This document shows positions 3,664 to 12,229 of a stretch of DNA of 64,000 bases, piece after piece; the first letter of the stretch is position 1; the number at the start of each line of letters is the position of its first letter. This stretch comes from Pilimelia terevasa (GTDB lineage: Bacteria; Actinomycetota; Actinomycetes; Mycobacteriales; Micromonosporaceae). The notes under the pieces are model-generated. The model saw only the letters and a list, made by a program, of their open reading frames with translations, was not told the DNA's origin and did no database searches. The position numbers were made by a program, and so were the translations under genes. The stretch covers positions 1 through 64,000 of the forward strand of contig NZ_BMQC01000006.1 of assembly GCF_014647915.1 (NCBI RefSeq), given 5' to 3'.

Positions 3664-4494
3664 CTAGTTGACGACGGCGACGCGGACCACGTCGAAGGCC
3701 GGCGTCTGGTTGGCCCGCTCCATCATCGGCAGGCGGTGCGAGCCGTCGCCGGCCCAGACCGCGCACTGGGCGGTACCGGCCGTCGGCATCCCGTCGACGC
3801 GGATCTGCACCTGGTCCGGCTGCGCGCCGCCCCGGCCGTCCTCGGTCGCCTCGAAGAAGGCGGGGTCCGGGGCCGGGTTCTGGGCGACCTGCTGGTTGCC
3901 CAGCATCCGGCAGGCGGTGTGGATGTGGCCGCGCTGCAGGCCCTGGCCGTTGAGCAGGGACGCCTCCAGGTAGTAGCCGCCGTCGGCCGCGCCGAGGAAC
4001 CGGTCGCGGACCAGGTTGCGACTGCTCACCACCAGGTTGAACGCCTGCCCGCGGCGCACCGCGCGGGGCGCGCCGGTGATCAGCAGGGACGGGTTCTGGC
4101 CCGCCGCGCTGACTTCGCCGAACTGCGTGTTGACGCAGCGCAGCCCGGCCTGGAAGCCGTCGTGGGGCTGTAGTCGGCTGCCGTTGCAACTCCGGCTGAG
4201 CACGTTGAGCCCGTTGATGACGACCTTGGTGCGGTTGTCACCTGCCCCGGCTCCCGCCCCGGCTCCTGCCCCCGCTCCTGCCCCCGTGCGGCCGCCTGCC
4301 CCGCCCCCGCCGCGGGCGCCGCCGGCAAAGGCACCGCCCACCTGCTGGGAGGACTGCCGGCGCTCGGCGGCTGAGGAGATCTGGGTGACGGCAACCGTCG
4401 CACCGAGAACCGCGAGAACCGCGCCTGCGGCGAACAGCCGCCTACCGCGCCCGGTCGGGGCGCTCGCATACCTGCGCTTCGCTGACCTGTTCAC
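3664..4494 (-). CDS. Secreted protein with Gly-Ala repeat linker, unknown function
   Basis: 276 residues, GTG start. An Arg/Lys-rich N-terminus is followed by one hydrophobic segment (about 20-40), read as a signal peptide or anchor, then a low-complexity linker ending in eight GA dipeptides, then a compact domain of about 185 residues beginning NRTKVVINGLNVLSRSCNGS. That domain holds four Cys (SRSCNG, RCVNTQ, TACRML, AQCAVW), suggesting extracytoplasmic disulfides, and a HIHTACRM segment. Similar proteins in Micromonosporaceae are, from memory, named pecanex-like without functional support. It follows the DUF4142 gene by 47 nt and probably shares its transcript. No function can be assigned. 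Confidence 0.65.
   Translation of the reverse strand: MNRSAKRRYASAPTGRGRRLFAAGAVLAVLGATVAVTQISSAAERRQSSQQVGGAFAGGARGGGGAGGRTGAGAGAGAGAGAGAGDNRTKVVINGLNVLSRSCNGSRLQPHDGFQAGLRCVNTQFGEVSAAGQNPSLLITGAPRAVRRGQAFNLVVSSRNLVRDRFLGAADGGYYLEASLLNGQGLQRGHIHTACRMLGNQQVAQNPAPDPAFFEATEDGRGGAQPDQVQIRVDGMPTAGTAQCAVWAGDGSHRLPMMERANQTPAFDVVRVAVVN
4242..4285 (-). repeat. 12-bp tandem repeat encoding (Gly-Ala)n
   Basis: About 3.7 copies of a 12-bp unit, GGGGCNGGAGCN on the coding strand, encode the GAGAGAGA linker of the secreted protein. The unit keeps the reading frame, so slippage would change linker length in steps of four residues without breaking the protein. Confidence 0.8.
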
Positions 4495-4541: not shown

Positions 4542-5315
4542 CTAGCGTCGGCGGAAAACTCGGACAGATGTGGCTAGCGCGGCGATCACCGCGACAGCCA
4601 GGACCACCCAGAGCACCGCAGGGTCGAGGGCGGGGCTGGCCGGGAGACCAGGTAGGCCGGCGGCCTGGGCCGCGGCTGCCATGGCGGCCGCCCCCGGCGG
4701 GGGCGGTGGCGCTTCGGGCAGCGCGTCGTAGTTGACGAACGTCGTGCTCTCCAGCAGACGCATGTGGGTCATGACGAACCCGTTGCCGACCTCGGCGAAC
4801 GCGCGCATCATCTCGTTGCGGGTGCCGGCGCGGACGCCCGCGATGACGGTGAAGACCTTGCCGTGCGCGTCCCGCAGGAGCTGGGCGTACGCCCGGTCGA
4901 ACGCGTCGCCGCGGAGCTGGCCCAGCGTGGCCAGGAACCCCTTCTGGTCGGCGTTCGGGTCGGCGGGCAGGCCCACCCCCAGTCGGGCCGCCGCCTGCAG
5001 CGTCTGGCGGTCGAGGTCGGCGTGCTGGTCGGCGATGATCCGCCCGACCTCCTTGACCCGGGCGCTGGCCGCCCGGTCCTGGGCCAGTTCGCCCGCCGCC
5101 ATCTCCCACAGGCCCGCCTGCCGGACCTTGATCAGAAGGTCCCGGTCGGCCGGTCCGAGGGGGCCCCACTGGGTGGAGACCCACCCGCCGGGCATGGAGC
5201 CCGGGATGTCCGGCGCCGCCGCCGCGGGCGTCGTACCGCCGAACCAGAGCACCCCCAGCGTGGTCACCGCCAGTGACGCGAGGAGCGCGGTGAACCGCTT
5301 AGGACGAGACCACAT
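4542..5315 (-). CDS. DUF4142 domain exported protein
   Basis: 257 residues from an ATG preceded by GGAGG at ideal spacing; the upstream in-frame TTG is rejected for that reason. The signal peptide (to about residue 34, TPAAAA) is followed by the DUF4142 four-helix ferritin-like domain, recognisable from DRDLLIKVRQAGLWEMAAGE, IIADQHADLDRQTLQAAARL and the TRNEMMRAF region. A Pro/Ala linker and a C-terminal transmembrane helix with RRR tail (last 28 residues) anchor it in the membrane facing outward. DUF4142 proteins have no proven biochemical role. The gene has its own SigA-type promoter at 5367-5396 and heads the transcript with the Gly-Ala repeat protein. Confidence 0.85.
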   Translation of the reverse strand: MWSRPKRFTALLASLAVTTLGVLWFGGTTPAAAAPDIPGSMPGGWVSTQWGPLGPADRDLLIKVRQAGLWEMAAGELAQDRAASARVKEVGRIIADQHADLDRQTLQAAARLGVGLPADPNADQKGFLATLGQLRGDAFDRAYAQLLRDAHGKVFTVIAGVRAGTRNEMMRAFAEVGNGFVMTHMRLLESTTFVNYDALPEAPPPPPGAAAMAAAAQAAGLPGLPASPALDPAVLWVVLAVAVIAALATSVRVFRRR

Positions 5316-5366
5316 ACGCACCTCCAACTTTACTCACCGGAATACTTCTCCACTCCACTGACAGGG

Positions 5367-5624: not shown

Positions 5625-5689
5625 GACGGTGCGGCCCGGCGTCCGCCGCACGCTTCCGGGAGATCGGAGCGCCGGGCCGCAGCACCGTC
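5625..5689 (-). terminator. Long hairpin at the end of the lipoprotein gene
   Basis: GACGGTGCGGCCCGGCG (5625-5641) pairs with CGCCGGGCCGCAGCACCGTC (5670-5689) over 17 bp with a 3-nt bulge; the second arm overlaps the stop codon of the lipoprotein gene. No U-run follows, as is usual in actinobacteria. Probable intrinsic terminator separating the lipoprotein from DUF4142. Confidence 0.65.
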
Positions 5690-6491
5690 AGTTGTAGTCG
5701 CCGCCGCCACCGCTGTCGCCGTAGCCGCCGCTCTTGTCGTTCTTCTTGTTGCCGCCGTTCCCGTACTGGCCGCCGCCGCCCTTGTCGTTGTTGCCGCCCT
5801 TGTCGTTGCCCGGCGGCGGTACGGCGCTCGGCGTGCCCTCGGGCATGCAGCTCGTGTTCTTCTTGCCGTCGGGTGCGACGACGAACCACACCCCGCCGAC
5901 GCCCTGGCCCTTCCACTGGCCGGGCTCCTTGTCACCGATGTACCGGTACAGGGGCCAGCCGTTCAGGGTGATCTGCTTGGTCCCGTCCGCGCGGGTGACC
6001 GAGCCGACCTTCTCGGCGTCGATGCCCTGCAGCTTGGGATTGCCGTCGGTGTACGCCGGGGGCCACACCTTCTCGCAGTCGCCGTTGCAGTTGCTCTTGG
6101 CGGGGTCGGGGGTGTCCTTGTCGAACCGGTACATCACCCAGCCCTTCTCGTCCGTGACCACCTCGCCCATCTGCTTGACGCTCTTGGCGATGAGACGCTC
6201 GGTCAGGTCCTGGCTCTCCCCGTTCCGGTTGTCGGCGTCGCCGCCGCTGTCGCCGGCATCACCGGCGTCGCCGCTGTCGCCGGTGTCGCCACCGGCGGAG
6301 TCGCCCTCGTCCGTCGCGTCCTCGTCGGCGCCGCTGTCCGCGGCCCCTGACCCGTCGGGAGCGGCTGCCTGGTTGGCCACCGGCTGCTGGTTGACGCCGT
6401 CGCCACCCACCGGAGCGCAGGCCGACATCGACAACGCGGCGATGACGGCGAGCGCGCTGCCGGCGATCGCGTTTCGGGTCTTGACCTTCAC
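5688..6491 (-). CDS. Lipoprotein with Lipoprotein_15 (COG4315-type) repeats
   Basis: 267 residues from a GTG with AGGAGG six bases upstream. The signal peptide ends in a lipobox, MSAC, with the acylated Cys at 25, so the protein is anchored on the outer face of the membrane. An Asp/Gly/Ser-rich acidic spacer (about 48-95) leads to two copies of the secreted repeat: KGWVMYRFDKDTPDP..CNGDCEKVWPP and NGWPLYRYIGDKEPG...GVWFVVAPDGKK. The C-terminal 50 residues are Gly/Asn/Lys-rich. The repeat family is common in actinobacterial and proteobacterial lipoproteins; its role is unknown. It lies downstream of an ECF sigma/anti-sigma operon but has its own promoter (6557-6583) matching the sigma promoter, so it is a likely target of that sigma factor. 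Confidence 0.85.
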   Translation of the reverse strand: MKVKTRNAIAGSALAVIAALSMSACAPVGGDGVNQQPVANQAAAPDGSGAADSGADEDATDEGDSAGGDTGDSGDAGDAGDSGGDADNRNGESQDLTERLIAKSVKQMGEVVTDEKGWVMYRFDKDTPDPAKSNCNGDCEKVWPPAYTDGNPKLQGIDAEKVGSVTRADGTKQITLNGWPLYRYIGDKEPGQWKGQGVGGVWFVVAPDGKKNTSCMPEGTPSAVPPPGNDKGGNNDKGGGGQYGNGGNKKNDKSGGYGDSGGGGDYN

Positions 6492-6556
6492 AGATCCTCC
6501 TGGTGTTCCCGGCGGTCGATTCCGCCGTAAGGCTTCGCGGTGCCCGTTCACCTAGG

Positions 6557-6583
6557 AGTACGCGGCCCCGGGGCCTGCGGATT
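6557..6583 (-). promoter_or_regulatory. ECF-type promoter of the lipoprotein gene
   Basis: On the minus strand, AATCC (complement at 6579-6583), 16 nt, then CGTACT (6557-6562), about 65 nt upstream of the GTG. The same core, ATCC-N16-CGTA, occurs before the ECF sigma gene (8141-8168). Two occurrences with identical spacing in front of genes of one locus suggest recognition by the locus-encoded sigma factor. Confidence 0.55.
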
Positions 6584-6676
6584 AACGGATCTGGAGATTT
6601 TTCGATGAATTGAAGACCATTGTGGACCTCCGCGGGACCGAACTCCGGGAAGGTCCGGGATATCGACGAAAATCGC

Positions 6677-7429
6677 TCAGACGTCGACGGACACGAGGCG
6701 GCCCGGACGGGCTCCCTCGTTCACCGACTGCACTTCGATGCGGTCGATGTCCGCGCGCTTGAGAGCGGTGGAGGCGGCGAGCTGCAACGACTTGCCGTTG
6801 TCCGCGTTGCCGTACCCGATCTGGTCCACGGTCCAGGTGCTCAGCACCTCTCCGTAACCGTCGGAGCCGACCGCGACGAGCTGGCACTTCAGCGGACCGC
6901 GCACATTGCGCAGCTCCAGCGCCAGCGCGGTGCCCCAGGGCTTCTCCGCCAGCCGCACGCTCGCCTGCACCTTGGTGGCCGGGTCGGTGGACCGGATGGC
7001 CGGCACGGATGCCAGCACGCCGCTGTCGGTGTCGGTCAGGATGCTGGCCGACGGCTGCGCCTGGGGGGTCCGCCCCCCGGTACCGCCGATGTTGCCGGCC
7101 AGCAGGCCGGCGCCCACGGCCGCGGCCAGCGCGACCACGCCCGCGGCCAGGGAGAAGGTGCGGCGCACCTTCGTGCGGCTGCGCTCGTAGGTGACCGTGT
7201 TGATCATCTTGTCCAGCATGTCGCCCTCGGCGACGGCCGCCTCGGCGTCCAGGAACGCCTCGCCGTCGACGTCGGCGAGCAGCGAGGCCACCGGCAGGAA
7301 ACTCTCCAGCTCCGCCGCGCAGCGGTCGCACGCGACCAGGTGGTCCTCGAAGACGGCGGCGTCCGGCCCGTCCAGCAGACCCAGCGCGTAGGAAGCCACG
7401 TCGTAGTGCTGTGCCTCCGACCGGTTCAT
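6677..7429 (-). CDS. Zinc-containing anti-sigma factor (RslA/RskA-like)
   Basis: 250-residue membrane protein that should hold the adjacent ECF sigma factor inactive. Residues 1-70 form the anti-sigma domain with the ZAS motif H30-x3-C34-x2-C37 (EDHLVACDRCAAE). One transmembrane helix lies near 91-114, and a 135-residue outer domain ends ...RPGRLVSVDV. In this family the cytosolic domain binds the sigma factor and lets go on zinc loss, redox change or regulated proteolysis; which applies here is not visible. ATG overlaps the end of the sigma gene by 4 nt (7426-7429), so the two are translationally coupled. Confidence 0.88.
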   Translation of the reverse strand: MNRSEAQHYDVASYALGLLDGPDAAVFEDHLVACDRCAAELESFLPVASLLADVDGEAFLDAEAAVAEGDMLDKMINTVTYERSRTKVRRTFSLAAGVVALAAAVGAGLLAGNIGGTGGRTPQAQPSASILTDTDSGVLASVPAIRSTDPATKVQASVRLAEKPWGTALALELRNVRGPLKCQLVAVGSDGYGEVLSTWTVDQIGYGNADNGKSLQLAASTALKRADIDRIEVQSVNEGARPGRLVSVDV

Positions 7430-8103
7430 CGGGTCACCCCCCGCTCCTCCAGAGCCGTGCGCAGCGCGCGCAGAGCGTAGTAGACCCGGGACTTCGCGGT
7501 GCCCAGCGGCAGGCCCAGCGCCTGCGCCGCCTCCGGCACACTCCGTCCGCGGAAGTAGGTTTCGACCAGAATCTCCCGGTGCGCGTCCGACAGGGCGCGG
7601 AGGGCGTCCACCACCGTCATCATGCCAAGAACCCGGTCAGTCTCGTCGGTGGTCGGGAACGCTTCGAGGTCCCGGTCGTAGGTCTCGCTCACGCGCGCGC
7701 TCTCGCTGCGGAACTCGTCGATGGCGATCCGCCGGGCCACCGTCACCAGCCAGGGGCGCAGCGACGTCTCGCCGTTGATGCCCAGCTTGTGGGCGTTGCG
7801 CCAGGCACGCAGCAGGGTCTCCTGCACGATGTCCTCGGCGCGCTGCATGTCGCCCCCGGTGAGCCGGGAGACGAACATCAGCAGCGGGCCGGCGTGCTGC
7901 TCGTACAGCAGGCGGAGCAGCTCGTCCTCGTGGCGTTCGGCACCCGAGGACGGATCCCCCCGCCGGGTTCCAGGTCTGGGTGTCACCGCAACATCATTAC
8001 CTCTCGGTGACCCGGCGTCGAGCACCCGCCAACGGTCCGCGATCGGGGCGTCGCGACTGACCGCATGCGCCGCGGCGATATTCGCGTGCGCGGACGACAA
8101 CAT
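7426..8103 (-). CDS. ECF-family RNA polymerase sigma factor (SigL-like)
   Basis: 225 residues. The ATG at 8103 has a strong GGAGG site, which fixes a long N-terminal extension of about 55 residues before region 2 (DELLRLLYEQHAGPLLMFVS, then QRAEDIVQETLLRAWRN). Region 4 is ALRALSDAHREILVETYFRG...SVPEAAQALGLPLGTAKSRVY. Regions 1 and 3 are absent, as in group 4 factors. Layout and anti-sigma partner resemble mycobacterial SigL-RslA, but orthology is not shown. The gene has an ATCC-N16-CGTA promoter that recurs before the lipoprotein gene, which fits autoregulation. Likely signal: envelope or oxidative stress, by family analogy only. Confidence 0.88.
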   Translation of the reverse strand: MLSSAHANIAAAHAVSRDAPIADRWRVLDAGSPRGNDVAVTPRPGTRRGDPSSGAERHEDELLRLLYEQHAGPLLMFVSRLTGGDMQRAEDIVQETLLRAWRNAHKLGINGETSLRPWLVTVARRIAIDEFRSESARVSETYDRDLEAFPTTDETDRVLGMMTVVDALRALSDAHREILVETYFRGRSVPEAAQALGLPLGTAKSRVYYALRALRTALEERGVTR

Positions 8104-8140
8104 CGGCTACCTCCGGTGCTGACGGTGCTGGACGCATGGA

Positions 8141-8168
8141 GATACGGGGGCGTCCGCCGTACGGATCA
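8141..8168 (-). promoter_or_regulatory. ECF-type promoter of the sigma/anti-sigma operon
   Basis: Minus-strand TGATCC (8163-8168), 16 nt, CGTATC (8141-8146), about 40 nt upstream of the ATG. It matches the lipoprotein promoter in both elements and in spacing, supporting an autoregulatory loop. Confidence 0.55.
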
Positions 8169-8244
8169 AAGCGATCGGGAGAATTTTCGGCCGGCCGCCG
8201 GGGCCGCCGCCCGAGGGACCGCCGGGGCGCGGGAGGATGCCGGG

Positions 8245-10278: not shown

Positions 10279-11067
10279 TCAGGAGAACAGGCCGCGCCGC
10301 TGGCAGGACTGCCGCAGCCAGCCGTCCAGGTGCGCCGACCAGTCGATCTGGTCCACCGTGGCGTAGTCGACCGTGAAGCGGCCGAACGCGTCGCTGCCCT
10401 CGGTGAACAGCCCGCCCCGCTTGTCCACCTCCAGGACGACCTGGAGCTGGTGCGGCGTGGCCACGAAGGTCAGCTCCAACTGGTTGATCATCCCCGCGTA
10501 CTGCGGGGACGGGTGGAACTCGATCTCCTGGTAGAACGGCAGCTCCTGCTGGACGCCGTACAGCCGGCCCTTCTCGTTGTCCGCCCGGCTGAACCGGAAA
10601 CCGAGCTGGACCAGCGCCTCCAGCAGCCGCTCCTGGGCCGGCAGCGGGTGTACCGCCACCTGGTCCAGGTCGCCCTTGTCGACCGCCCGGGCCACGGACA
10701 GCTCCGTGCGCACGCCCATGGTCATCCCGGTCAGCCGCTGGCCGTACACCTCCGTGATCGGCGTCTCCCACGGCACGTCCAGGCGGAACGGGATGCTCTG
10801 CTTCGCCCCCGGCGCGAGCGCGAACGACCCCGCCACGAGCAGCCGCTGGAACTCCTGGGTGGAGTGGAACTCGCTGTCCCCGGACTCGACCTCGACCTCG
10901 GTGACCAGGCCGAGGGCGACGTGCTCGATGGCGACCTCGTGGTCGCCGCCGACGATGTGGACCTGGCCCTCCAGGTGCCCGCCCGGCCGGCAGCGCGGAT
11001 CCGTCAGGACGGTGTCGACCGACGGCCCGCCCACCCCGAACGCCTGCATCATCCGCTTGAAGACCAA
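10279..11067 (-). CDS. Spo0M-like sporulation-control / arrestin-fold protein
   Basis: About 262 residues. I choose a TTG at 11067 because GGAG lies six bases upstream and the product then begins [20 protein letters not shown], the usual start of this family; an ATG four codons upstream is the alternative. The sequence matches Spo0M throughout: [26 protein letters not shown], a [20 protein letters not shown] segment, and the C-terminal domain. Spo0M of Bacillus is an arrestin-like protein affecting sporulation and cell division; in actinobacteria its role is unproven. It is divergent from sigB. Confidence 0.85.
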
Positions 11068-11196
11068 GACACGCTCCATCCGCTCACACCGGGCCGGCAC
11101 GCCGCCGGCCGCTGCCTGGGTGTCCGCCCGAAGTTACCCCGGCCGCGCCGCACCTCACCCGGATCACGCGCGCGACTCACGGACGTTTCACGGAGC

Positions 11197-11211
11197 GTCA
11201 GCAAAGCTGAC
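11197..11211. promoter_or_regulatory. Small inverted repeat upstream of sigB
   Basis: GTCAGC-AAA-GCTGAC, perfect 6-bp arms, lies in the 205-bp region between the divergent spo0M-like gene and sigB, 62 nt before the sigB start. Candidate operator. No convincing -35/-10 pair was found for either gene here. Confidence 0.35.
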
Positions 11212-11272
11212 CCCCACACCGCGCGGTGGCCCCTCACCCGCGGCGTACACCGACGGGGCGAAGGAGAGGACC

Positions 11273-12229
11273 ATGGGCCTGCACCTGATCACGAGGGACG
11301 GCGCCGGGACAGCGATCCGGCCGGAGCCCGACCTGGACGCGTGCGACGAGCGCGGCGTCTCCGCCGACCTCGTCCGGGTGTACCTGAACGGGATCGGCCG
11401 CACCGCGCTGCTGAGCGCCGCGCAGGAGGTCGAGCTGTCCCGCCGGGTCGAGGCCGGCCTGTACGCGGCGCAGAAGCTCGCCGACGGGGTCGCCGACCCG
11501 GCGCTCGCCGCCGACCTGCGGCTCGTCGCCCGCGAGGGGGGCGCCGCCAAGAACCAGCTCCTGGAGGCCAACCTGCGCCTCGTGGTGAGCATCGCTAAGC
11601 GGTACGCCGGTCGGGGCATGGCCTTCCTCGACCTGATCCAGGAGGGCAACGTCGGGCTGATCCGGGCGGTGGAGAAGTTCGACTACGCCAAGGGCTACAA
11701 GTTCTCCACGTACGCGACCTGGTGGATCCGCCAGGCGATCTCCCGGGCGATGGCCGACCAGGCGCGGACGATCCGGCTGCCCGTCCACATGGCCGAGCAG
11801 GTCAGCCGGCTGGCCCGGGTCCGCCGCGAGCTGACCCTGACCCTCGGCCGCGAGCCGCTGGTGGCCGACCTCGCCGACGCGCTCGACGTGACCGAGGTGG
11901 CCGTCCTGGAGCTGCTGTCCTACGACCGGGAACCGGTCAGCCTCGACCAGAGCGTCGGCGAGGACGGCGAGAGCGTCCTGGCCGACTTCGTGACGCCGGT
12001 GGTGCACGGGCCGCAGCACGACCCCGGACTGCGGTCCGAGGTGGAGGAGATGCTGGCCGGGCTGTCCAGCCGCGAGCAGGCGGTGATCCGGCTGCGGTAC
12101 GGGCTGGACGACGGCCGGCACCGCACGCTGGACGAGGTGGGCCGGGAGTTCGGCCTGTCGCGCGAGCGGGTGCGGCAGATCGAGCGCGGGACCCTGACCA
12201 AGCTGCGCCGGCCGATCCTGGTCGCCTGA
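11273..12229 (+). CDS. sigB: Primary-like (group 2) RNA polymerase sigma factor
   Basis: 318 residues from an ATG with AAGGAGAGG upstream. Region 1.2 ([20 protein letters not shown]), region 2 ([20 protein letters not shown] through [16 protein letters not shown]), region 3 ([20 protein letters not shown]) and region 4 ([13 protein letters not shown], then [20 protein letters not shown]) are all complete. The short N-terminus without region 1.1 and the length identify a non-essential group 2 factor of the actinobacterial SigB/HrdD type, which supports stationary-phase or stress transcription with near-SigA specificity. The exact orthologue name is inferred. Convergent with the rhodanese gene, only 14 nt apart. 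Confidence 0.88.

Follow-up and report, generated by a model that had tools for sequence, protein, structure and literature searches.

The sigma factor SigL of Mycobacterium tuberculosis, a member of the ECF19 group, recognizes promoters of the form TGAACC-N16/17-CGT. Its partner RslA is described as a zinc-binding anti-sigma factor in which oxidation yields a CXXC disulfide, with redox-dependent release of the sigma factor (PMC2877774). ECF factors are described as commonly autoregulated and co-transcribed with their anti-sigma factors in a positive feedback, and their classical promoters as being of the AAC/CGT type (PMC8103513). SigK of M. tuberculosis is reported to be autoregulated and to drive MPT70/MPT83 (PMC7509140). 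The SigU regulon of Streptomyces is described as including SCO0930 among its secreted proteins (PMC6295645).

Analysis of the window (the whole stretch of 64,000 nucleotides of Pilimelia terevasa DNA under study) revealed a locus that belongs to the known SigL-type kind. It comprises the following features.

5688-6491, minus strand: lipoprotein gene with two Lipoprotein_15 repeats (Pfam), GTG start with Shine-Dalgarno sequence
6559-6585, minus strand: promoter-like site of the lipoprotein gene, TTAATCC (6579-6585), N16, CGTA (6559-6562)
6586-6676: gap that corresponds to the place of a predicted divergent TTGAACC promoter in many relatives
6677-7429, minus strand: gene for a membrane anti-sigma factor of the zinc type (HLVACDRC); 4-base overlap with the sigma gene
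7426-8103, minus strand: gene for a SigL-type ECF sigma factor of 225 aa with regions 2 and 4
8143-8169, minus strand: promoter-like site of the sigma operon, TTGATCC (8163-8169), N16, CGTA (8143-8146)

Judged from sequence comparison, the locus would form a self-reinforcing switch, in which the SigL-type sigma factor activates its own operon, the lipoprotein gene and a few further targets through TTNAWCC-N16/17-CGTA promoters (probability about 0.85). For comparison, 80 related Micromonosporaceae loci, the best 80 of 156 when ranked by similarity to the sigma protein, were combined with the window to give 81 loci.

Regions 2 and 4 were the sole domains found in the sigma protein, as in ECF factors. 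The protein scored 215.2 bits against NCBIfam model PRK09645 (curated cut-off, 202), which assigns it to the SigL type, and its best solved relative was M. tuberculosis SigL (6dv9_F, E 4.4e-35). The sigma and anti-sigma genes overlap and are preceded by a conserved motif; a positively autoregulated operon shared with a membrane anti-sigma factor, as described for ECF factors, is predicted. The combination of an actinobacterial ECF factor and a membrane anti-sigma factor is also that of SigK/RskA; in contrast to that system, the P. terevasa sigma factor scored only 80.1 bits against the SigK model (cut-off, 226), and the target family differs. A second sigma gene, of the principal-like type by reading, lies in the open reading frame 10577-12229 (plus strand), at a distance of about 3 kb from that of the ECF factor.

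The HxxxCxxC signature of zinc-type anti-sigma factors (ZAS motif) was present in the anti-sigma protein of all 81 loci. Profile scores remained below the curated cut-offs (zf-HC2, 21.3 versus 22.2 bits; NF052375, 40.8 versus 100). A sequence comparison with RslA (3hug) gave an E value of 0.0025, and by fold the N-terminal domain superimposed on 3hug_P with an rmsd of 1.4 over 52 columns, but at an E value of 0.14. A transmembrane stretch was predicted by reading the sequence. The structure model had a pLDDT of 77 overall and above 90 in the outer (C-terminal) domain, which was modelled as strands; a PDB fold search with this domain returned no match at E 0.001 or better. The locus thus resembles SigL/RslA in its closest solved sigma factor, its PRK09645 score and its zinc-type membrane anti-sigma factor with HxxxCxxC, and differs from it in the lack of a PDB match for this outer domain, in having a Lipoprotein_15 protein as a conserved neighbour and in the autoregulatory -35 sequence TTGATCC.

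The Lipoprotein_15 repeats named in the preliminary description of this locus were borne out, as Pfam (PF03640) matched the lipoprotein in two stretches with 100.8 bits (gathering score, 24.4). The gene probably starts at GTG 6491, which has a 6/6 Shine-Dalgarno match and lies 67 nt after CGTA; the alternative GTG 6551, the upstream start of the longest frame, would be placed inside the transcription start region. A putative lipobox, LSMSAC, was read from the sequence, and cysteines C135, C139 and C215 were invariant in 28 aligned sequences. The sole NCBIfam match of the lipoprotein was SCO0930_lipo, a likeness to the Streptomyces protein; the score of 174.9 bits is below the equivalog cut-off of 275, so the two are not the same equivalog. 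A PDB sequence search gave an unrelated protein as the best hit (E 0.04), and a fold search with the low-confidence model (pLDDT 65) found no match. The genes at 3664-4494 (minus strand; no Pfam match) and 4542-5327 (minus strand; DUF4142) of the window likewise lie downstream of the lipoprotein gene in Actinoplanes-type loci.

The pattern ATCC-N16-CGTA, which had been noted with equal spacing before the sigma and lipoprotein genes, is present at both places with N16, within two bases of the edges first given. These were its only matches in the window (6559-6582 and 8143-8166, minus strand), and the sigma start lies 39 nt 3' of the operon site. Shuffled windows contained a mean of 0.36 matches, with at least two in 6 of 100 shuffles, and the genome contained 60 (7 for the reversed control). 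Because of these shuffles and genome matches, the bare 8-base pattern is weak evidence by itself, and a test of conservation was therefore needed. The pattern was also rejected as a regulon marker, being too loose, and the family motif was used instead. TTNAWCC-N16-CGTA matched the window only at 6559-6585 and 8143-8169 (shuffle mean, 0.01; at least two matches in 0 of 100 shuffles). With N16/17, it matched the 4.54-Mb genome 11 times and its reversed control 0 times. The spacer of the lipoprotein promoter (6563-6578) contains the palindrome GGCCCCGGGGCC.

The sigma, anti-sigma and lipoprotein genes adjoin in 80 of the 80 related loci. The motif was scored upstream of the genes as TTNAWCC, 15 to 18 bases and CGTA. 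Among the 81 loci, which are related and hence not independent cases, it was found upstream of the sigma gene in 79 and upstream of the lipoprotein gene in 73. When these regions were resampled with a first-order Markov model, the mean was 0.02 on the sigma side and 0.05 in the 300 bp after the anti-sigma stop, in which 71 of 81 loci had the motif. All spacers found were of 16 or 17 bases, though 15 to 18 were allowed. The spacers vary widely among the related loci, but the boxes do not. Both loci lacking a strict sigma site (L099 and L058) carry one-base variants. The lipoprotein genes lacking one belong to L031, the nearest relative found among the best 80 of 156, and to L041, L073, L074, L083, L094, L110 and L103; in L103 a match exists just beyond the counted region, which leaves seven loci. 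Over the 972 kb that these loci span, strict matches were confined to the sigma, lipoprotein and divergent slots, and the reversed motif did not occur. The conservation of both sites supports the earlier proposal of an autoregulated sigma factor that would drive a surface lipoprotein.

The two slots differ in their -35 sequences. The sigma site reads TTGATCC in 78 of 79 cases and TTAATCC in one; the lipoprotein site reads TTCAACC in 67 of 73, TTCATCC in five and TTAATCC in one, the window. These fixed differences suggest graded promoter strength or partly different readers. In Micromonospora loci among L088-L109, TTGACA abuts the -35 box of the lipoprotein promoter (TTCAACCTTGACA), which looks like an overlapping -35 of the housekeeping type. 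In three genomes of one genus from another family (L166-L168), a sigL-like gene lies beside lipoprotein and DUF4142 homologues, and TTGAACC-N16-CGTA precedes the lipoprotein homologue.

Inspection of the interval that separates the anti-sigma stop from the lipoprotein promoter revealed the exact sequence TTGAACC on the opposite strand in 63 of the 81 loci (window plus best 80 of 156); TTGAACC occurs 84 times on both strands of the 972 kb. In 62 of these 63 cases CGTR follows after 16 to 17 bases (CGTA in 34, CGTG in 28), as in L048 (TTGAACC-N16-CGTA, about 7452-7478, minus strand of that locus). In 62 of 81 loci the prediction is thus a divergent promoter that stands back to back with that of the lipoprotein gene and is directed at the anti-sigma gene. 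The 300-bp test found the pattern in 60 of 81 loci (resampling mean, 0.045). Among 74 loci that have a lipoprotein promoter and were not selected for the divergent motif, 59 matched 7/7 of the -35 bases plus CGTR, three matched six plus CGTR, and 12, mostly Paractinoplanes plus the window, were without the site. In the window gap 6586-6676, no divergent match was found on the plus strand with spacer 16 and up to two mismatches; the best -35 match was 5/7 and lacked CGTR. The combined pattern GGTTGAA-N31-33-TTGAACC-N16/17-CGTR, searched anywhere in the genome, matched 167 of the 354 family genomes, all within 2 of the 44 genera, with no match for the reversed control and none in P. terevasa. 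Among the open-licence literature matches listed, none described this locus or an ECF/anti-sigma locus with a divergent promoter.

The distance from CGTR to the anti-sigma stop was mostly 70 to 127 nt, with exceptions that include 18 nt in L031. When nine of these stretches were folded, eight formed a long GC-rich hairpin and the one from L031 did not. The position of the site and the hairpins lead to the prediction of a short hairpin-ended RNA, or of antisense transcription into the anti-sigma gene. Micromonospora and Actinoplanes-type loci may accordingly have three promoters (TTGATCC for the operon itself, TTCAACC for the lipoprotein, TTGAACC divergent), of which the divergent one might yield a short hairpin-ended RNA against the 3' end of the anti-sigma transcript, lowering the inhibitor in a second positive loop; the window lineage would lack this RNA-assisted ECF switch. 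We consider this extension possible but doubtful. It is about an even call that the divergent site is instead a by-product of the symmetry of its promoter region, or just aids the lipoprotein promoter, with an RNA of no role. In each of 59 pairs, 31 to 33 bp separate the -35 boxes of the two promoters around an AT-rich middle (45% GC versus 72%), as expected of a shared upstream element, and the site is placed 250 nt (L032) and 656 nt (L046) from the anti-sigma stop in two loci and is absent from the 12 of 74 mentioned above. A start codon lay within 16 nt in only 8 of 62 loci, with no common frame for a small protein, and an Rfam search of the RNA region in five loci gave no family match. However, both boxes are kept, and the 62 of 63 TTGAACC sequences with correctly spaced CGTR exceed what an unused by-product needs. 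If the divergent promoter found in the related genera is active, it would provide a conserved example of ECF-driven transcription that runs towards the factor's own inhibitor.

In the Micromonospora loci among L088-L109, a GTG-N8-CAC-like element around GAAATTGACCAC is conserved in the AT-rich middle between the -35 boxes and may serve as an upstream element or as the site of a regulator. Second-kind divergent pairs, with another middle that begins with GGTTGAACGATCGAC, apparently mark another locus (G292:C24:189432-189497, G343:C4:5178570-5178635, G327:C290:189-254, G363:C359:4252-4317 and G261:C1:5073585-5073649). A few genomes carry such a pair additionally; G261 showed the second kind only.

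In the self-reinforcing switch proposed for P. terevasa, the zinc-type membrane anti-sigma factor would hold the SigL-type sigma factor made from the same operon. A signal would free the sigma factor, which with RNA polymerase would read TTNAWCC-N16/17-CGTA promoters; the most likely candidates are oxidation of the zinc site, a stimulus reaching the outer domain, or both. One of these would renew the sigma/anti-sigma operon, one would produce the surface lipoprotein, and a few others would serve further exported or envelope proteins. The reading of the motif sites by this sigma factor, the release signal and the role of the lipoprotein are parts of the model that we infer. The signal is probably redox-linked, as proposed by analogy with RslA, but an envelope signal acting through the outer domain is also conceivable. 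Micromonosporaceae, which include many antibiotic producers, would thereby gain a SigL-type system with a searchable and testable promoter motif.

The same promoters could be real and yet depend chiefly on a SigL-like paralogue for their reading, which would place the operon and the lipoprotein gene in a cross-wired network. The genome encodes two further homologues of the sigma factor (49% and 41% identical), [CG]TGAACC-N16-CGTA precedes 6 of the 14 paralogues that were examined, including one from the window genome (L190), and the -35 spelling differs among the three slots. Such a reader is unlikely, since the sigma site, at TTGATCC in 78 of 79 loci, is one base from the paralogue type and tied to the sigma gene, and gene order joins the lipoprotein to the sigma factor of the locus. 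That the sharing of the motif is due to chance and neither window site is a promoter, as the shuffles and genome matches of the bare pattern might allow, has a negligible probability, given that 79 sigma and 73 lipoprotein genes of the 81 loci have the motif and the shuffle means stay below 0.1.

The motif matches of the genome were then used to assess the predicted wider envelope regulon. Ten of the 11 matches lie 35 to 120 nt before a gene, and the eleventh (L123) is inside a predicted frame. Across 61 family genomes the motif occurred 566 times and its reversed control 182 times; as the excess is only about threefold, a single match is no proof. The targets were compared with the matches outside the locus in two genomes of another genus (g30), G029 (20 of 21) and G055 (19 of 19); a simple gene caller placed no gene behind 10 of the 20 and 9 of the 19 sites, respectively. 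Four of the nine P. terevasa targets outside the locus have homologues with the motif in one or both genomes, namely, an alpha-lytic-type protease and a membrane protein without Pfam match (G029 and G055) and a secreted DUF4142 protein and a response regulator (G055). Among 30 homologues each, the motif preceded 8 protease genes and, as CGTA or CGTG, 6 DUF4142 genes, with the P. terevasa genes counted; of the six closest DUF4142 homologues, four have the motif and two have it with one mismatch. The system would connect the function-unknown Lipoprotein_15 and DUF4142 proteins with a response that is of the zinc type and perhaps redox-linked.

These recurring targets give the proposed envelope regulon partial support. 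Homologues of 6-phosphogluconate dehydrogenase had the motif in 1 of 30 cases, that of P. terevasa itself, and a pentose-phosphate theme was dropped on this count. Single genomes have motif sites at zwf-like and transketolase-like genes, named by reading. The window scan found no family-motif match before the DUF4142 gene or the 3664-4494 gene near the lipoprotein gene. A relative of the 3664-4494 protein in G029 lies behind a motif (L201, 65% over 181 aa).
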